Shown here in pieces: positions 1 through 6,568 of a DNA stretch of 6,568 nt. Both the position numbers and the translations under genes were made by a program. Numbering within the stretch: the stretch's first letter is position 1; every line of letters starts with the position of its first letter. The DNA comes from an uncultured Bacteroidales bacterium (lineage in GTDB: Bacteria > Bacteroidota > Bacteroidia > Bacteroidales > F082), in NCBI GenBank assembly GCA_946410535.1, contig CAMKAR010000122.1, forward strand, positions 1 through 6,568. The letters are read 5' to 3'. Below the pieces are notes generated by a model that was given only the letters and a program-made list of their open reading frames with translations, was not told the origin of the DNA and made no database searches.

Positions 1-1667
1 GGATCCAGCGTCCTGAAGGTGATGGGGGCGCTCCACACCTCTGGGTCGGAGCACTCGCTCTTCACCCGTACTTCATATTCAGTGTTGGCGACAAGGCCCT
101 GAATGACAAACGAGTTTGCAGCGTTTTCCTGATTTCCAGTGATGCCCGTTTGGGTTTGCGGTTCAGAGGCAGCCATCGAAGTGCCAAAGACCACATTGTC
201 GAGATGCAGGCAGTTCGAGGCGTTGCTCACAGTCGACTCGCCATAGAAGGCGATGCGCACCGTTTGCCCAACATATCCACTCAGGTCGATGCTCTCTTGT
301 TGGAACCTGTAGGGAGAAATGTTGATGTAGACATCTTCCGAGCCCGAGTTGTTCCACTCGCGGAGGATATTCCATGTTCGACCATCATCAGCGGTAATCA
401 GCACGACAAACCTGTCGTCGGGGCCATTTTGTATTTGGCTGTTGTAGGGGTCAGTGCTCGATATGGACAAGTCGAAAGTGAAGGCATTGTCAGAAGGTGT
501 TACGGTATGTCTCTTGGTGATGAGCCAATCATTGTGATCTGTACCATTGACAACAAGGTATGCACTCATTTCATCGACACCGTATCCATTTGCGCCAAAA
601 ATCCACGATCTCTGGTCACTGGGTCCAAAAGCGCCACCAGCCAGAATGTCGCTCAGCAGGCCTTTTTTGCTTTCCCAACCCTCGGGAAGCAATGCGGTAT
701 TGAAACGTTCGTCAATGCCAACCACTTGGTCGGTCTTGTGATAACGGACGGCGTAGCTTTCCACATCGATGGAGCCTGTCCAGTTGATTTTGGCGCTCTC
801 TTGGGTGAGGTTGCTGGCAGCCAAGTCGGTGGGCACAGGGCAAGTGCTGAGCGTAGTGAAGGTTAACGTTTCGCTCCACGTGCCGAAATCCGTTTCGCTG
901 CACTTGGCACGGACTTGGACATGATATTGCGTTTCAGCATCAAGGCCTGTAATCTGGAAATCTTCGTGCGTGGTGGCTGTAACTACAGTAGCTTCCGAGA
1001 AATCCGAGGTTTTTGAATACTGCACTTCCCAAACATTTTGCGTTTGCGTTGGGTCAACCAAATCCCAACTCAGTTTGGCGGTATGGGCCGACAACTCGCC
1101 ATGAGTCGGCTTGCCCGTGGGGAAACACGTGGGAGCCTCGCTCACCACTACGTCGTCGATACTAAAATAGTAGCCACTGCCTGTTCCTCCTGCGTACTTG
1201 AACGCCATGTAGCTGCCCTCTGGCGCAAAGGTGAAATAGGCCGTCGTCGTGGTCAGCGTCTGCGTTTTGGGGCAGGCTAACGTTTGCACGAAGGTGCTGG
1301 TATCGTTCAAGTCGGTCATGTAACCCACATAAAGAGTACCATTGGATTCGGACGTTCCTTCATTACGGTAGGTGAAGGTGAGTTGGTATCCCGAGATATT
1401 CTCCTCAAACTCAGGCAGGATAGCATAGATTGGTGTTGTCGGGTCTGACCTGAAGAACAGACAGTTGCCCTCAACGGCATAGCCCGAAGTGCTGGAAATG
1501 AACACCTGCGGATCATCATAGGACTCTTCCGGACGGGTGAGGAACCGCCAGCAGTCGGGCAGCGGATCGAAGGGGTAAATGGATTCGATGGGATAGATGC
1601 CACTGCTGACGCCCGTATAGCTGTCGAAGTTCTCCGAATAGTTAACGAGGCTTATGGGGTCGCAGAT
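1..1667 (-). repeat. Repeat unit 3 (incomplete): CAJ-A3, FN3-1c, FN3-2c split by CAJ-B2
   Basis: Residues 1530-2084 restart the four-domain order. CAJ-A3 (1530-1705) has YSENFDSYT, YPFDPLPDCWRF, GNCLFF, YAILPEFE, NISGYQLTFTYRN, GTLYVGYMTD and SIDDVVVS, closer to A1 than to A2 in the central strands. FN3-1c (1706-1801) has a two-residue expansion, TQTQNVWEV, where copies a and b read TQTAWEV or TQTAWDV. It also has H1718 where the other copies have a cysteine. FN3-2c starts STCPVPTDLAASNL and is split like FN3-2a. It resumes through FVIQGLVANTEYEVRVKSEC and ends TFRTLD at the window edge, where FN3-3 would be expected next. Confidence 0.85.
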
Positions 1668-4600
1668 GGTACGGAACGCCACGGAGGTGTAATCGCTGTA
1701 GCCACCGTTGCCGCAGCCCTTGCGGATGTAGAAGCGGACGAGCGTGTTGGGCGCGAAAACATTCGTCAGATTCAAGGTGTTGCCATGCACCACGGTCCAG
1801 TTGGTTTCGCGGGAAGGCTCGAAGTCTGCCGGGGGATTCGAGATGGTGAAATACTGGAACGTCTCATCGGTCTCGGCTTCCCAAGTGAAATTGGCACCCG
1901 TGGAAGTCACATTGCCGACGGCCAATCCTGTGGGCGGCTGGCAGGTGGGCAACAGGGAGACCTTCACGTCATCGATGCAGCACTCATAACTAGCCCCTTC
2001 GGAAAACCATCTAAACACCAAACGCGTGGCCTCGGCAGGGACTTCATTCAAGTCCTTGCTATGCTGAACCATGGAGAAATAGCTGTCCTCGAATTCTGCA
2101 ATCGGCGTAAAAGTATTGTAATTTACGTCTCCGCTCTTGATGTAACCCAAAACAAGCGTTCCACCAGAGTCTCTCTTCATCCAGAAGCTGATGCGAAGGG
2201 TGCTAATGGGATTGTCGAAGTAGGGCAAGGCGGCGTAACCGTATTCTCTACCAAAGAAGAACAATGAATTAGTGCCACTGTGGTGATAGTAACAATATTC
2301 GTCACCGTTGTTGATGATATGGGGAGCCCAACCTGCGATAAATTCTGGATTTTCATATTGGCTCGTGAAATAGCCATCCCAACAACGGGGCAAGGTACCG
2401 GAAAATACATTTGGACTACATGAATTGCCCTCGTAGCCTTCAAAGTCCTCGAAATAGAAATCGTTGTCACCATCGAAACTAAGGACCATGTGGCCGCATT
2501 CGGTATGGAAATCCACGTAGGTGTAATTGCTGACGGCCTGGTTGCCGAAGTACTTGCGGAGGTAGAAACGGGCGGGCCTGTTGGGTGTGAAAGCGTTCTC
2601 TAATCTCACCGTATTGCCTTGGACATTGATCCAATCGGTGGGATCGAAACCTTCCTGCGGATTCGTGACGGCGCAGTATTGGTATGATGTAGCATACTCA
2701 TCGGCATCCCAAGTGAAGGTGGCATCCGTGGCAGTGATGCCGCTCACTTGCAAGCCCGTGGGCACACTGCCTGCATAGTCCGTCTCGAAGACGACAGACG
2801 CACTCCATGCCTCAGGATTGGAGCAGTTGCTCTTCACTTGCGCTTCATATTCTGTATAAGCGTTGAGGTTGGAAAGGACTGCCGTGGTTGCGGTGATGTC
2901 CTGAATGGTTCGCCATGACGAGGCGGCGGTGCTTTTATAGCGGACGTCGTAGCTCTGCACATCGATGGTGCCGCTCCAGCTGAGGACGGCACTCACTTGG
3001 GTAATGGTATGGCTGCTGACGGCCAAGTTGAAAGGCACCGGGCAAGTGCTGAAGGTGGTGAAGGTTATCGTTTCGCTCCACGCGCTGAAAGCCTCATCGC
3101 TGCACCTGGCTCTGACGCGGGCATAGTATTGCGTTTCGGGAACAAGGTTACGGAGTTCAAAATTCTCATGCGTGTTGGCAATGACTGTACTATACTCCGC
3201 GAAGTCCTGGCTCGTCGAGTACTGCACATCCCAAGCGGTTTGCGTCGCGTCAATCAAATCCCAACTCAACTTGGCGGTCTGGGACGACAACTCGCCGCAG
3301 CTCGGCTTACCCGTGTGTAAACACGAGGGAGCCACGCTCACCTCCACGTCGTCGATACTCAAATAGTAGGGTTCACCCTCTCCGCCTTTGTACATGAATG
3401 TCATTCTGCCCTGCTCTGGAGCATGGGGGAAATAGGCTGTCATTGTGGTCAGTGCCGTCGTTTTTCGACATTCAAGTGTTGACACAAAGGTACTGGCATC
3501 GCTCGGGTCGGTCAGATAACCCACATGAAGCGTTCCATTGTCAATGTTCGTTCCTTCATTACGGTAGGTGAAGGTGACTTGCAAGTTGGCGACGGGTTGG
3601 GCAAACTCGGGCAAGATGGCATAAAGCGGGGTCGTGCTGCTCGACTTGAAGAACAGGCAGTTGCCGCTGACAATATAATCTTGAAATGTGGAGATAAACA
3701 CCTGTGGATAATCGGTGGCTGAACGGTTGAGGAATTGCCAGCATTGGGGCAGTGGATCGTTGGGATAGGTGCTTGGGAATTGGGCATTACTAGTGCCGGC
3801 AGTATAGCTGTCGAAGTTTTCCGTATAGCTGTTAATGTCATCGATAACCATGGTGCCGCAACCGGTGCGGAACTCCACGTAGGTGTACTTGCTGAGACCA
3901 TCGTCGCCGCAATCCTTGCGGAGGTATAAGCGGGCGACCCTGTTGGGCGTGAAAGCGTCCGTCACATTCACCGTATTGCCTTGCACATTGGTCCAGACGG
4001 TAGGCTCGAAACCTTCCAGCGGATTCGTGACGGTGCAGTATTGGAACGATTCAGTAGGCTCGCCATCCCAGCTGAAGGAGGCACCCGTGGCGGTGATGCT
4101 GCCCTCCACGACCTGCAAGCCCGTGGGCGCATCGGGCGCTTCCGGCGTTGTGAAGAAGAGAGGCGCACACCATGCCTCAGGTTCGGAGCAATTGCTCTTC
4201 ACTTGCGCTTCATATTCGGTTTCGGCGCTGAGGTTGCGAAGGACTTCCGTAACGGTAGCCGTGTTTGCGGTGATGCCTTGCTTGGTTTTCCATGGTGAGG
4301 CGGCGACTAACGTGCCCACGGCCACATTGTCGATATGCAGGTAGTTCCTGGCATTTTCCACGGTCGACTCGCCATAGAAGGCGATGCGCACGGTTTGCCC
4401 CGCATATCCACTCAGGTCGATGGCCACCCGCTCGCCCGTGGCGGAGCAAGCAATGTTGTTGAAGACATATTCCGAACCCGTGTTGTTCCACTCGCGAAGG
4501 ATGGTCCATGATTGGCAGTTGTCCGTAGTAATCAGCACGACAAACCTGTCGTCGGTGCCATCTAGCTCCATTGTGAAGCCCCAATCAGCCATAGCCAAGT

Positions 4601-6254
4601 CGAAGACGACAGCATCGGAAGATTGTATGGTATAACTCTTGCTGATGAGCCAATCTCTACTAGAAACATCTGTGACACAAAGGCGTGCATGACTGTCGAA
4701 GACATCGGCATACGCACCAAAACCCCATGGAAAATATCCCATATAATAGATAGGGGGGTCCAAAGTTTGACCATCCATAATCTGACTCAGCAAGCCATAT
4801 TTGAGTTCCCAACCCTCAGGAGCCGAAGTAGTGTTGAAGCGTTCGTAATCGCCAATCACATGATAGGCTTTTCTATGGCGGACGTCGTAGCTCGGCACGT
4901 CGATGGAGCCTGTCCAGCTGAGGTCGGCCTTCCCTGCGGTAAGGTTGTTGGCGGCCAAATTGAAAGGCACGGGGCATGTGTTGAAGGTGGTGAAGGATGC
5001 CGCTTCGCTCCACGTGCTGTAATCATCATTGCCGCATTTGGCACGGACACGGGCATAATATTGCGTTTCAGCAACAAGGCCCGTAAGCTCAAAATCCTCA
5101 TGCGTGGTGGCAGGTTTTACAGAACTCCCAGAGAAATCCGGATTTTCAGAATACTCCACTTCCCAAGCGGTTTGCGTTGCGTCAACCAAATCCCAGCTCA
5201 GCTTGGCGGTATGGGCCGACAGCTCGACACATCTCGGCGTACCTGTGGGGATGCACGAGGGGAGCACGCTCACCACTACGTCGTCGATATACAAATCGTA
5301 GTTGTAACCTCCGTCTCCATACTTGAATGCGATGTAGCTGCCCTGCGGTGCTTGGAGGAAAAAGGCTGCCTTTGTGGTCAATGCAGCCCTTTTGGGGCAT
5401 TCAAGTGTTTGCACGAAGGTGGTAGTATCGTTAGGGTTGGTCATGTAACCCACGTAAAGCGTGCCATCGTCATCGGTCGTTCCATAATTACGATAGGTGA
5501 AAGTGAGTTGGTATCCCGAGATGTTCCCCTCAAACTGGGGCAGGATGGCATAAAGGTCCTTTACTCCGCTCGAATTGAGCAACAGGCAGTTGCCGCTGAC
5601 GGCATAATATGGACTTGAGGTGAGAAACGCCTTTGGATAGGGAGGATAAGAGCCGTCTGAACGGTTGATGAATTGCCAGCATTGGGGCAGCGGATCGTTG
5701 GGGTAAGTGTTAGGAGATGAGGCATTATTAGTGTGGCTGGTATAGCTGTCGAAGTTTTCCGTATAGACGTTATTACTATTGACCACCACAGGGCCGCAAC
5801 CTCCAGTAATGGTGGCTACCCAACCCGCCTTTACCCCATTCCAATCGCTATTCCATATAATGATCATGGTGCCAGACGTGGCCACATAATCCCTACCTGT
5901 GACCAACGAATTGGGACAGTCTGTTTGTCCCCTCACAAGCAAATAATCCCCAGAGAACTCGCCATCATAAATGCGCATGTAGTCCCAATCACTACAGCTA
6001 CTACCCGACTCTGTCTCGAATTGGGAGAAGTTGATGGTAATGTCGCTATCACAAGTCAGCGTAAGGATGTAATTCTCGTTTGAACGATAATCGGCATTGG
6101 GTCCTCCCGAATCGTAGAAGTTGTAAGTTTGGCCAGGTTGAATGGCGATATCCTTGTTTCCGTCCAAAACAATAGTGTTGTTGTCCTGCGCGTTTGCTGC
6201 CCAAGGCGCGAGCAGTGCCGTGAGGAGCAGGAAGAGTGAGTGTTTTACTTTCAT
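1..6254 (-). CDS. Giant secreted multidomain protein (CUB + repeated choice-of-anchor-J/MAM-like and FN3 domains), C-terminus cut off by the window
   Basis: This is an uninterrupted frame of 2084 codons from ATG at 6254 to the window edge, with no stop seen. The start is chosen because a classic signal peptide follows at once and a TAnnTTTG promoter-like box lies about 30 bases upstream. Approximate domain order by residue: signal peptide 1-22; CUB 25-153; CAJ-A1 154-329; FN3-1a 331-424; FN3-2a 425-703 (split by CAJ-B1 464-650); FN3-3a 704-797; CAJ-A2 798-973; FN3-1b 974-1068; FN3-2b 1069-1158; FN3-3b 1159-1251; CAJ-C 1252-1433; FN3-3c 1434-1529; CAJ-A3 1530-1705; FN3-1c 1706-1801; FN3-2c from 1802 (split by CAJ-B2 1842-2027). 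No catalytic motif is visible. Such architectures in Bacteroidota are usually cell-surface or secreted adhesin-like proteins, and a T9SS sorting domain would be expected beyond base 1; this is inference. The specific ligand is unknown. The neighbour on the same strand ends in a T9SS-like tail, but a hairpin and a separate promoter suggest independent transcription. Confidence 0.93.
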   Translation of the reverse strand, partial: MKVKHSLFLLLTALLAPWAANAQDNNTIVLDGNKDIAIQPGQTYNFYDSGGPNADYRSNENYILTLTCDSDITINFSQFETESGSSCSDWDYMRIYDGEFSGDYLLVRGQTDCPNSLVTGRDYVATSGTMIIIWNSDWNGVKAGWVATITGGCGPVVVNSNNVYTENFDSYTSHTNNASSPNTYPNDPLPQCWQFINRSDGSYPPYPKAFLTSSPYYAVSGNCLLLNSSGVKDLYAILPQFEGNISGYQLTFTYRNYGTTDDDGTLYVGYMTNPNDTTTFVQTLECPKRAALTTKAAFFLQAPQGSYIAFKYGDGGYNYDLYIDDVVVSVLPSCIPTGTPRCVELSAHTAKLSWDLVDATQTAWEVEYSENPDFSGSSVKPATTHEDFELTGLVAETQYYARVRAKCGNDDYSTWSEAASFTTFNTCPVPFNLAANNLTAGKADLSWTGSIDVPSYDVRHRKAYHVIGDYERFNTTSAPEGWELKYGLLSQIMDGQTLDPPIYYMGYFPWGFGAYADVFDSHARLCVTDVSSRDWLISKSYTIQSSDAVVFDLAMADWGFTMELDGTDDRFVVLITTDNCQSWTILREWNNTGSEYVFNNIACSATGERVAIDLSGYAGQTVRIAFYGESTVENARNYLHIDNVAVGTLVAASPWKTKQGITANTATVTEVLRNLSAETEYEAQVKSNCSEPEAWCAPLFFTTPEAPDAPTGLQVVEGSITATGASFSWDGEPTESFQYCTVTNPLEGFEPTVWTNVQGNTVNVTDAFTPNRVARLYLRKDCGDDGLSKYTYVEFRTGCGTMVIDDINSYTENFDSYTAGTSNAQFPSTYPNDPLPQCWQFLNRSATDYPQVFISTFQDYIVSGNCLFFKSSSTTPLYAILPEFAQPVANLQVTFTYRNEGTNIDNGTLHVGYLTDPSDASTFVSTLECRKTTALTTMTAYFPHAPEQGRMTFMYKGGEGEPYYLSIDDVEVSVAPSCLHTGKPSCGELSSQTAKLSWDLIDATQTAWDVQYSTSQDFAEYSTVIANTHENFELRNLVPETQYYARVRARCSDEAFSAWSETITFTTFSTCPVPFNLAVSSHTITQVSAVLSWSGTIDVQSYDVRYKSTAASSWRTIQDITATTAVLSNLNAYTEYEAQVKSNCSNPEAWSASVVFETDYAGSVPTGLQVSGITATDATFTWDADEYATSYQYCAVTNPQEGFDPTDWINVQGNTVRLENAFTPNRPARFYLRKYFGNQAVSNYTYVDFHTECGHMVLSFDGDNDFYFEDFEGYEGNSCSPNVFSGTLPRCWDGYFTSQYENPEFIAGWAPHIINNGDEYCYYHHSGTNSLFFFGREYGYAALPYFDNPISTLRISFWMKRDSGGTLVLGYIKSGDVNYNTFTPIAEFEDSYFSMVQHSKDLNEVPAEATRLVFRWFSEGASYECCIDDVKVSLLPTCQPPTGLAVGNVTSTGANFTWEAETDETFQYFTISNPPADFEPSRETNWTVVHGNTLNLTNVFAPNTLVRFYIRKGCGNGGYSDYTSVAFRTICDPISLVNYSENFDSYTGVSSGIYPIESIYPFDPLPDCWRFLTRPEESYDDPQVFISSTSGYAVEGNCLFFRSDPTTPIYAILPEFEENISGYQLTFTYRNEGTSESNGTLYVGYMTDLNDTSTFVQTLACPKTQTLTTTTAYFTFAPEGSYMAFKYAGGTGSGYYFSIDDVVVSEAPTCFPTGKPTHGELSAHTAKLSWDLVDPTQTQNVWEVQYSKTSDFSEATVVTATTHEDFQITGLDAETQYHVQVRAKCSETDFGTWSETLTFTTLSTCPVPTDLAASNLTQESAKINWTGSIDVESYAVRYHKTDQVVGIDERFNTALLPEGWESKKGLLSDILAGGAFGPSDQRSWIFGANGYGVDEMSAYLVVNGTDHNDWLITKRHTVTPSDNAFTFDLSISSTDPYNSQIQNGPDDRFVVLITADDGRTWNILREWNNSGSEDVYINISPYRFQQESIDLSGYVGQTVRIAFYGESTVSNASNCLHLDNVVFGTSMAASEPQTQTGITGNQENAANSFVIQGLVANTEYEVRVKSECSDPEVWSAPITFRTLD
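174..731 (-). other. CAJ-B2: second nested choice-of-anchor-J-like domain, inside FN3-2c
   Basis: Residues 1842-2027 lie between YAVRYHK and MAASEPQTQTGITG. Landmarks repeat those of CAJ-B1 in order: DERFNTALLPEGWE, DWLITKRHTV, DDRFVVLITADD, WNILREWNNSGSED, IDLSGYVGQTVRIAFYGEST and CLHLDNVVFG. The DNA is very close to CAJ-B1 in places: 29 identical bases at 232-260 versus 4363-4391, and 28 identical bases at 394-421 versus 4528-4555. The segment between GLLS and DWLI (roughly the 500-650 base region) is much less alike between the two copies. Confidence 0.75.
1668..2501 (-). repeat. Short variant unit: CAJ-C followed directly by FN3-3c
   Basis: Residues 1252-1529 lack FN3-1 and FN3-2. CAJ-C has the same overall plan as CAJ-A (YFEDFEGYEG, LPRCWDGYF, NSLFFFG, AALPYFDNP, LRISFWMKRD, GGTLVLGYIKSG, CCIDDVKVS) but low similarity in detail. 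It also carries extra cysteines and aromatics around GDEYCYYHHSG. FN3-3c (1434-1529) resembles FN3-3a and b: PPTGLAVGNVTSTGANFTWEA, FEP...NWTVVHGNT, VRFYIRKGCG, ending AFRTICD. The pair may be a block that duplicated separately from the four-domain unit, since FN3-3 always precedes a CAJ-A or CAJ-C domain in this protein. Confidence 0.8.
2502..3863 (-). repeat. Repeat unit 2: CAJ-A2, FN3-1b, intact FN3-2b, FN3-3b
   Basis: Residues 798-1251 repeat the order of unit 1 with one major difference: FN3-2b (1069-1158) is uninterrupted, running from YDVRYKS straight into TAASSWRTIQDITATTAVL. CAJ-A2 keeps YTENFDSYT, YPNDPLPQCWQF, GNCLFF, YAILPEFA, VTFTYRN, GTLHVGY and SIDDVEVS. It departs from A1 and A3 in the NISGYQ segment, reading PVANLQ. 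FN3-3b ends VDFHTECG. The DNA keeps long stretches identical to units 1 and 3, for example 29 identical bases at 3549-3577 and 1353-1381, so divergence is patchy and not uniform. Confidence 0.85.
3864..5795 (-). repeat. Repeat unit 1: CAJ-A1, FN3-1a, FN3-2a split by CAJ-B1, FN3-3a
   Basis: This is the first full unit (residues 154-797). CAJ-A1 carries the family signature seen in all three A copies: YTENFDSYT, then YPNDPLPQCWQF, GNCLLL, YAILPQFE, LTFTYRN, GTLYVGYMT, TTFVQTL and finally YIDDVVVS. FN3-1a begins SCIPTG and contains AKLSWDLVDATQT and TQYYARVRAKC before FTT. FN3-2a begins TCPVPFNLA, contains DLSWTGSIDV, is interrupted after YDVRHRKA, and resumes with ITANTATVTEVLRNL and EYEAQVKSNC. 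FN3-3a has FSWDGEPTESFQYCTVTNP and ARLYLRKDCG and ends FRTGCG. The latter hallmark also ends FN3-3b and FN3-3c in variant form. Confidence 0.85.
4305..4865 (-). other. CAJ-B1: choice-of-anchor-J/cleaved-adhesin-like domain nested inside FN3-2a
   Basis: Residues 464-650 break FN3-2a between the beta-strand YDVRHRK and the segment beginning AASPWKT. Landmarks: ERFNTTSAPEGWE near the start, DWLISKSYTI, DDRFVVLITTD, SWTILREWNN, IDLSGYAGQTVRIAFYGEST and NYLHIDNVAV at the end. This pattern matches the choice-of-anchor J/cleaved adhesin group of MAM-like jelly-roll domains, and differs clearly from CAJ-A in the same protein. Its N and C ends lie close together in the FN3 insertion point, as expected for a nested domain. 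The family name is by motif recognition; no profile search was possible. Confidence 0.75.
5796..6182 (-). other. CUB-like domain (residues 25-153)
   Basis: The order of landmarks fits the CUB fold: FYDSGGP near 46-52, NENYILTL at 59-66, the F-x-x-F-E stretch ending at E80, C87-SDWDYMRIYDG to 98, a second cysteine at C113, TSGTMIIIW at 126-134, and NSDW...GW at 135-145. C87 and C113 are spaced like the second CUB disulfide. E60, D91 and D137 sit where calcium ligands lie in calcium-binding CUB domains; that assignment is by motif only. CUB domains are protein-protein or glycan interaction modules, best known from animals and also found at the N-terminus of large Bacteroidota exported proteins. 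It appears once here, unlike every other module. Confidence 0.8.
6189..6254 (-). other. Sec signal peptide of the giant protein
   Basis: Residues 1-22 have a basic start (MKVKH), a hydrophobic core (LFLLLTALLAPWAA) and an A-x-A type cleavage site, ANA before QD at residues 22/23. There is no lipobox cysteine after the core, so signal peptidase I processing is expected rather than lipoprotein anchoring. This fixes 6254 as the start and places the protein outside the inner membrane. Confidence 0.9.
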
Positions 6255-6283
6255 CTTGAGTAATAGGCTTTTATTTAAGGCGG

Positions 6284-6291
6284 CAAAAATA
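6284..6291 (-). promoter_or_regulatory. Bacteroidota -7-type promoter element for the giant gene
   Basis: The minus strand reads TATTTTTG, a full match to the Bacteroidota TAnnTTTG -7 element, 29 bases upstream of the ATG at 6254. Transcription would start about 20-25 bases before the ATG, giving a short A/T-rich leader. No convincing TTTG/TTG -33 element is seen upstream at the expected spacing. There is also no strong Shine-Dalgarno sequence in the leader, which is usual for this phylum. Confidence 0.5.
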
Positions 6292-6335
6292 CGAAGAAAT
6301 TTCGGATGAGAGGTTGATTTGTTGTTGTTTATGAA

Positions 6336-6369
6336 AAGAGAGCCGACAGCTTGCGCCACCGGCTCTCTT
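6336..6369 (-). terminator. Probable intrinsic terminator of the upstream minus-strand gene
   Basis: A perfect 10-bp inverted repeat, AAGAGAGCCG at 6336-6345 and CGGCTCTCTT at 6360-6369, encloses a 14-base loop. On the minus strand the stem ends CTCTCTTTTCAT, giving a short U-rich tail; the plus strand tail is CTCTCTTATC, with only two Ts. It lies between the stop codon at 6527 and the promoter of the giant gene, so it fits as the end of the upstream transcript. The large loop and weak U-tract make efficiency uncertain. Confidence 0.6.
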
Positions 6370-6417
6370 ATCGAGAATTGGCTTGTTTTCTTGTTTTTTC
6401 CTGGTTGGGGTATTTTC

Positions 6418-6522
6418 ACTCCCCCTGTCCCCTCAAGAGGGTGACGCCTGCCGGACGCTGGCTTCGGGTTCAAATTTTGCGCCGCTTTGCGCCCTCCCCC
6501 TTTTAAGGGGACCAGGGGGGTT
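6418..6522. repeat. GC-rich intergenic inverted-repeat element
   Basis: The left arm at about 6418-6440 reads CCCCCTGTCCCCTC then AAGAGGG. The right arm at about 6491-6522, read on the opposite strand, gives CCCCCCTGGTCCCCTTAAAA then GGGGGAGGGC, so the two arms are imperfect inverted copies. Each arm is also a small palindrome: CCCTC-AA-GAGGG on the left, and CCCCTT-TT-AAGGGG on the right. The interior holds an 8-base direct repeat, TTTGCGCC, at about 6477-6494. The right arm starts five bases past the stop of the upstream gene. It has the look of a dispersed intergenic repeat, but copy number cannot be seen from one window; it could also help end transcription. Confidence 0.5.
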
Positions 6523-6526
6523 CAAG

Positions 6527-6568
6527 TCATCTCACCACCACCTTCTTCACCTTCACGTTGTCGCCATT
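6527..6568 (-). CDS. C-terminal end of an upstream exported protein with a T9SS-type sorting-domain tail (partial)
   Basis: Reading the minus strand from the window edge gives NGDNVKVKKVVVR followed by TGA at 6527-6529. The VKVKKVVVR block ending just before the stop is the typical last strand of type A T9SS C-terminal domains (Por secretion system sorting domain), where a G-D/N turn precedes a Lys/Val-rich strand. Only 13 residues are visible, so the passenger protein is unknown. The proposed frame is the only one of the three minus frames giving this pattern and a stop in a sensible place before the intergenic element. Confidence 0.7.
   Translation of the reverse strand, partial: NGDNVKVKKVVVR

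Follow-up and report, generated by a model that had tools for sequence, protein, structure and literature searches.

The window analysed here is a 6,568-nucleotide contig from an uncultured Bacteroidales bacterium (CAMKAR010000122.1), and its minus strand encodes part of a large surface protein assembled from fibronectin type III (FN3) and choice-of-anchor J (CAJ) domains. Two of these FN3 domains, FN3-2a and FN3-2c, each have a CAJ domain of ~187 residues inserted into the C-C' loop; a third, FN3-2b, is a secondary loss of that domain, unless the FN3 tree is rooted within or next to the 2b branch, and the nested domain of FN3-2a looks exchanged between relatives. The architecture, the predicted fold, the polarity of the loss and a divergence that is sharp at both edges and accompanied by a higher synonymous distance were all computed, and from this divergence we infer the exchange. 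Taken together, an FN3 socket of one origin, a clean loss in FN3-2b and an exchange of the FN3-2a nested domain by homologous recombination form a fairly probable account of the present gene.

Regarding the gene, a single open frame starts with an ATG at +6254 and reaches the window edge at +3, covering 2084 codons with no stop; its 3' end lies beyond the window and the protein is partial. On the whole protein, PF00041 matches with an E-value of 3e-41, and NF038128 (choice-of-anchor J) scores 130.6 bits over five stretches, the best of which is located in the table below. The protein consists of FN3 and CAJ domains strung together, with the unit CAJ, FN3-1, FN3-2 occurring three times; FN3-2 is filled in the first unit (2a) and uninterrupted in the second (2b), and because FN3-2c (residues 1804-2084) is filled too, the window part of the gene reads filled, empty, filled. 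Two relatives, protein P0001 and a frame on L026, a contig of the Bacteroidales metagenome-assembled genome G001 (Goat_Reticulum), end in TIGR04183, the type A sorting domain of the type IX secretion system (T9SS), with 31.4 and 30.7 bits, respectively (cut-off 23), and the FN3/CAJ rod is probably secreted by this system.

The interruption of FN3-2a proposed by a first-pass annotation of the sequence is borne out: YDVRHRK (residues 456-462, +4869-4889) and AASPWKT (651-657, +4284-4304) lie 188 residues apart, and in FN3-2b the equivalent YDVRYKS (1102-1108) is followed by the single residue T and then by AASSWRT. The presence/absence of ~560 bases at an in-frame boundary thus amounts to a net 187 codons (561 nt), with 188 residues in 2a (+4305-4868) versus one in 2b. 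At the DNA level, the flank match GAGGCGGCG at 4297-4305 and 2920-2928 is real; the match of GCTTTT at 4867 and 2931 is also real as DNA, but it is one base off the codon phase (A-AAA-GC in 2a, AAA-AGC in 2b), and the insert boundary is in frame only by codon alignment, with an ambiguity of one or two codons. The frame itself is unshifted at the junctions. Outside the insert, FN3-2a and FN3-2b have 216 of 261 aligned bases in common (83%), so their resemblance is not due to chance.

In the structure predicted for FN3-2a with AlphaFold2, the separated halves pack into one seven-stranded FN3 sandwich and the CAJ domain protrudes from the C-C' loop as a side branch, as anticipated; FN3-2b gives a single uninterrupted FN3 fold, and both the fold of FN3-2 and its strand order, A-B-C-C'-E-F-G, agree with FN3. 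Taken alone, the 2a insert (187 aa) scores 41.4 bits against NF038128, whose curated cut-off is 30; a Pfam scan of the same insert (463-649) returned no family at E 0.1, so PF07675 (Cleaved_Adhesin) was unmatched. Its predicted structure matches the K domains of Kgp and the MAM-like CAJ/cleaved-adhesin fold (4itc, 3m1h, 3km5). The nested domains of 2a and 2c are homologous, and they occupy the same FN3 insertion point as in relatives.

To place the window among related proteins, a set of 121 was used, namely the window and 120 listed of 841 matches obtained with the nested FN3 as query; all compared proteins are cluster representatives. Half-FN3 profiles found 962 first-second pairs in this set, and the gap between halves is bimodal, with 744 pairs below 50 residues and 218 of 130-209 residues. 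The earlier opinion that nested FN3s are uncommon finds no support here, since one or more filled FN3s occur in 88 of the 121 proteins, although this frequency is biased upward because the relatives were fetched with a nested-FN3 query. In the genus of G001, the unit finds a match at E 1e-10 in 38 of 99 genomes, in some only through the CAJ part; in the order, it finds one at E 1e-30 in at least 18 of 393, with at most 6 candidates scored per genome. Where the listed relatives are named, the names ("hypothetical protein", "choice-of-anchor J domain-containing protein" or "fibronectin type III domain-containing protein") are hardly more informative, and among the open-licence papers listed by literature searches none was seen to describe a CAJ nested in FN3.

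As for the polarity of the difference, 558 of the 962 FN3 pairs were kept for trees (185 filled, 373 not), 404 having been removed by coverage and E-value filters. The resulting tree has 4 changes of state, compared with 155 in shuffles; the changes number 6 without the junction columns, 8 with the first half only and 11 with the second half only. In all four of these trees, the six 2b orthologues form one clade that adjoins 2a and 2c and lies within the filled FN3s, and a fifth, by IQ-TREE on 86 chosen units, agrees on 2b. The midpoint root falls among uninterrupted FN3s and implies three losses and one gain, so that by parsimony the sampled units acquired the filled state about once. The orthologue comparison suggested at first pass has thus been run and gives a loss: a filled and an uninterrupted copy do stand side by side in the gene, but FN3-2b is not a relic of the state before insertion. 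P0001, P0002 and P0003 are also filled, empty, filled, so the loss predates their split. Whole units come and go as well, P0004 being without the 2b-bearing FN3 pair and P0072 without a filled 2a. An origin of 2b by recombination with an ordinary FN3 was considered and ruled out, because in the half trees each half of 2b falls among filled units. The opposite polarity, in which FN3-2b is ancestral and never filled while CAJ domains entered 2a and 2c independently, would suit the uninterrupted 2b and the alignment of its flanks with 2a; it is highly improbable, given that 2b sits within the filled units in every tree, including those without junction columns or with either half alone, and given the homology and identical position of the 2a and 2c nested domains.

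Accurate as to the nesting, the first-pass annotation missed that the nested domain of FN3-2a differs sharply from its close orthologues despite near-identical surroundings. The scaffold is 88-93% identical to the window in five measured orthologues (93% over 1887 residues in P0001), and L026 is 93.6-93.8% identical over 4.0 kb; the 2a insert is 56-59% identical in the close orthologues P0001, P0002, P0003, P0014 and P0004, and 56-58% in the nested-domain comparison of six, the sixth being L001, the best locus of the genome scan and also from G001. In the five proteins, identity to the window is 80-100% for the other domains that they possess, except the N-terminal part (78% in P0002, 72% in P0014). 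Along FN3-2a, identity to the six orthologues is 96-100% at residues 426-473, 42-45% at 474-580, 67-71% at 581-649 and 82-91% at 650-705, and the six are mutually alike. For the nested domain of 2c, identity is 89-92% in P0001, P0002, P0003, P0004 and P0072, the five close relatives whose 2c can be compared. P0005, whose scaffold is 65% identical to the window, has a nested domain 64-65% identical, closer than those of the six orthologues.

The edges of this divergence were located on the DNA. The codons of the window and of L001, the only orthologue available as DNA, agree to 471, differ intermittently to 659/660 and show no difference at 661-690, the end of the compared stretch; the synonymous distance (dS) is 0.065 before the insert, 0.47 within it (0.83 in residues 474-580) and 0.00 directly after, and the nonsynonymous distance (dN) over the insert is 0.375. 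A two-breakpoint scan of residues 389-795 set the breakpoints at 472 and 660, with 171/555 versus 25/642 differences and a gain of 85, the maximum of 300 shuffles being 21.7. In the nested domain of 2c, dN is 0.068 and dS 0.087, so nesting alone does not raise dS. In the G001 copy, which is spread over two contigs, the reading frame shifts shortly ahead of the split FN3 (L001, ~7893-8010), through either an assembly error or a real break; intact relatives exist.

The generality of such variability was examined in 168 proteins, at places where both 45-residue flanks were at least 80% identical, a drop being a segment between them of less than 70% identity. By comparison, drops occurred in 32/147 nested domains, 112/1136 free CAJ domains and 159/5026 others, comparisons that are not independent of one another; by orthologous site, they occurred in 9/35, 9/69 and, for uninterrupted FN3s, 8/160. 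One further pair, P0040 and P0092, combines FN3 halves that are 100% (first) and 94% (second) identical with inserts that are 52% identical. Called nested but kept in these counts are P0120_505, a false call with FN3-like content, and a few, P0095_1746 and P0103_1752 among them, that look like frayed boundaries. Nested sites exceed FN3s (p=0.0006), FN3s being about half as long as nested domains; at a cut-off of 0.60 the three classes give 5/35, 7/69 and 2/160, at 0.65 they give 5/35, 7/69 and 5/160 (nested versus FN3 p=0.018), and at 0.75 they give 10/35, 12/69 and 17/160. CAJ-type domains are thus the variable units, and nesting is no barrier to their variation.

Several results weigh against a socket of one origin that lost one domain and exchanged another. 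The excess of nested sites over FN3s shrinks at other cut-offs, such as 0.65 and 0.75; the eight nested sites other than that of the window rest on identity, edges and dS coming from the window's site. Nested CAJ domains are not demonstrably more variable than free-standing ones (9/35 versus 9/69, p=0.17), and the socket may therefore be irrelevant to exchange. In the trees, the second half alone requires 11 changes of state, the branch uniting all filled FN3s has a support of only 0.646 (the placement of 2b is independent of it), and the IQ-TREE analysis has few columns and an unsettled bootstrap. As for the exchange, dS to L001 is only 0.15 in residues 581-649, the C-terminal third, so the exchange may have covered only part of the domain or have been patchy; dS between the window and L026 is uneven outside the insert too (0.038-0.186, and 0.31 in CAJ4). 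No donor above 65% identity was present among 120 listed of 717 matches or in the nested-domain tree, where the window lies beside 2c-type domains (83/57) and P0005 beside the six orthologues (74/44), both weakly; grouping the window domain with the six is rejected marginally by the approximately unbiased test (p=0.038). Finally, the scaffold tree is compatible with a change either in the window or in the ancestor of the others, and the window-type nested domain is known from one sequence only.

Other explanations of the divergent 2a domain fare less well. Rapid evolution in place, driven by diversifying selection and free of recombination, would account for the high overall dN, as for a surface domain under pressure, and for the low dS of residues 581-649; it is nevertheless unlikely, because dS is raised along with dN in the insert and falls to 0.00-0.07 in the adjoining flanks, both edges are sharp, and the sister domain in 2c is low in both distances. 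Gene conversion could instead have homogenised the FN3 units, making the halves look young and leaving the nested domain to show the true age of divergence, which would suit a gene made of near-repeats in which 2a and 2b are so alike; however, similarity extends over the whole scaffold, including the N-terminal part and CAJ1-CAJ3, and only the 2a insert stands out, with CAJ4 doing so mildly, and this reading is improbable. No more credible is an assembly chimera in which one strain contributed the nested domain and a second strain the flanks: repeats do hinder assembly, and the G001 copy is itself split over two contigs, but the frame is intact across both edges, similar drops in identity occur at 8 other nested-site clusters, and a chimera would itself presuppose a further gene in which the same flanks enclose a different nested domain.

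Under the explanation by socket, loss and exchange, the FN3-2 units would belong to one FN3 lineage whose C-C' loop bears a whole second domain, usually a CAJ. Held at both ends, the CAJ would form a side branch of the FN3/CAJ rod; because both ends are anchored in one FN3 hairpin, it would project sideways, and its loss or exchange would leave the register of the rod unchanged. FN3-2b would have undergone a clean, in-frame loss of its nested domain before the close orthologues diverged, and that of 2a would have been replaced via homologous recombination, the near-identical FN3 halves serving as crossover sites; at the 5' side, the homology would also span the first ~9 residues past the first half of the FN3, and the swapped piece would consist of a diverged CAJ version and the adjoining C' strand. 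Both the loss and the putative exchange keep to the nesting boundary within ~10 residues. The nested CAJ presumably binds a ligand, as we assume from the K domains of gingipains and from other relatives of the fold; as a binding head, its exchange may alter what the cell sticks to. This makes it a testable question by what route a binding-type domain is changed in large, repetitive surface proteins while the rod stays undisturbed, and it bears on the role of such proteins in the rumen and gut.

Regarding the occupants of the FN3 slot, a phmmer search with the window insert matched 161 of 219 inserts (E<1e-5), and a profile of these 161 matched 15 of the remaining 58. This count replaces that from a profile of the whole insert set, which matched 216/218 but was circular. 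The 58 form clusters of 34, 12 and 9, plus three singles. The cluster of 34 is CAJ/cleaved-adhesin-like, and its member P0035_574 matches PF07675 at 1e-35. The cluster of 12 has ~150-200 aa, and its scanned member P0035_931 matches DUF4082 below the cut-off and no NCBIfam entry; this cluster also includes P0016_557, P0016_939, P0032_552, P0032_930 and seven more, all at the same FN3 point, and in P0035 and P0054 the FN3 halves are identical although the inserts between them are only 59% identical. For the cluster of 9 (~140 aa), neither member P0007_823 nor the similar P0099_1045 has a Pfam match. The singles are a DUF2436 in P0007 (1.2e-53), P0030_499 with a SoxE match barely above the cut-off, and one false call. 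The FN3 halves that flank DUF2436 in P0007 can be clearly recognised and this FN3 groups among filled ones, which suggests that one kind of domain replaced another in a fixed FN3 slot. It is possible, with chances somewhat short of even, that one lineage of FN3 domains in the Bacteroidales of gut and rumen is a standard port for varied binding-type domains, exchanged between proteins or strains via the FN3 halves and sometimes dropped to leave a working FN3; the occupants of such a port would be, just as tentatively, CAJ or cleaved adhesin, DUF2436 and the unclassified family of ~150-200 residues.

Features of the window, with residues numbered along the partial protein
Feature	Residues	Positions	Strand	Basis
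Partial gene, T9SS-type modular surface protein, 3' end missing	2084 aa in window	3..6254	-	open reading frame; T9SS type A sorting domain of relatives
Probable signal peptide, MKVKHSLFLLLTALLAPWAANA	1-22	6189..6254	-	judged by eye from sequence
CAJ1, free-standing	~149-333	5256..5810	-	match to home-made CAJ profile, 147-333
FN3-1a, uninterrupted	~334-425	4980..5255	-	half-profiles
FN3-2a, first half, strands A, B, C	426-462	4869..4979	-	codon alignment, half-profiles, predicted structure
CAJ nested in FN3-2a	463-650	4305..4868	-	
Exchange-like segment differing from close orthologues	~472-660	4275..4841	-	DNA comparison, breakpoint scan
FN3-2a, second half, strands C', E, F, G	651-705	4140..4304	-	codon alignment, half-profiles, predicted structure
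FN3-3a, diverged FN3-like unit	~706-800	3855..4139	-	weak half-profile pair; boundaries inferred
CAJ2	~801-978	3321..3854	-	internal repeats D1, D10, D11 in common with CAJ1 and CAJ4; boundaries inferred
FN3-1b	~979-1069	3048..3320	-	PF00041 best stretch, 988-1064; half-profiles
FN3-2b, uninterrupted, descended from filled FN3	1070-1160	2775..3047	-	half-profiles, trees
FN3-3b	~1161-1252	2499..2774	-	repeat D5; first-half profile match only; boundaries inferred
CAJ3	~1253-1436	1947..2498	-	inferred from position between FN3 units and sequence pattern
FN3-3c	~1437-1531	1662..1946	-	weak half-profile pair
CAJ4, likewise of two allele types among orthologues	~1532-1707	1134..1661	-	repeats D1, D10, D11
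FN3-1c	~1708-1803	846..1133	-	half-profiles
FN3-2c, first half	1804-1840	735..845	-	codon alignment, half-profiles
CAJ nested in FN3-2c	1841-2027	174..734	-	NF038128 best stretch of whole protein, 1881-2022
FN3-2c, second half	2028-2084	3..173	-	half-profiles; PF00041 match

Outside the FN3-2 units, CAJ4 (1134-1661) is 92% identical to P0072 versus 82-84% to P0001, P0002, P0003 and P0014, and is likely a second mosaic. The N-terminal region (residues ~23-148, 5811-6188, minus strand) is CUB-like, with PF00431 at E 0.0012, below the cut-off; it is 70-92% identical in four aligning relatives, versus 95% for CAJ1 in three. Upstream, positions 6527-6568 of the minus strand, NGDNVKVKKVVVR followed by a stop, are the tail of another gene and resemble the end of a T9SS sorting domain; the upstream gene of L001 (51-6389) encodes a 2112-aa FN3-rich protein with the near-identical end VNGDNVKVQKVVVR, and the L026 frame ends likewise. 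Recombination between adjacent paralogues could occur. A sigma-70 and terminator scan of positions 6200-6568 found none, and a megablast of the window against plasmids gave no match.

Compared with known families, the 2a insert scores above the cut-off of the CAJ family NF038128 and the 2c insert is its best stretch, a match that is silent on nesting in FN3; FN3-2 has the fold and strand order of PF00041, differing in the ~187-residue domain carried in the C-C' loop of 2a and 2c. The standard port, if true, would parallel in nature the FN3 scaffolds with grafted loops and would be a system that diversifies surface binding. The nearest parallel is in Porphyromonas gingivalis: the C-terminal module of Kgp is reported to be K3, K4 or D1, with high recombination and groupings incongruent with the strain phylogeny (Dashper et al. 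2017, PMC5266723). The CAD (K) and DUF2436 (D) modules of Kgp, RgpA and HagA resemble the present case in the MAM-like CAJ/cleaved-adhesin fold and probably also in belonging to T9SS proteins and in the exchange of variants, which in P. gingivalis occurs between strains (PMC5266723), and DUF2436 also occupies the FN3 slot of P0007. The difference is that those modules, as described there, stand in line (PMC5266723), whereas here the putatively exchanged domain is nested and the FN3 halves frame the exchange. The exchange of adhesin modules is known from P. gingivalis, and what sets the present case apart is that the unit which looks exchanged is nested in another domain.
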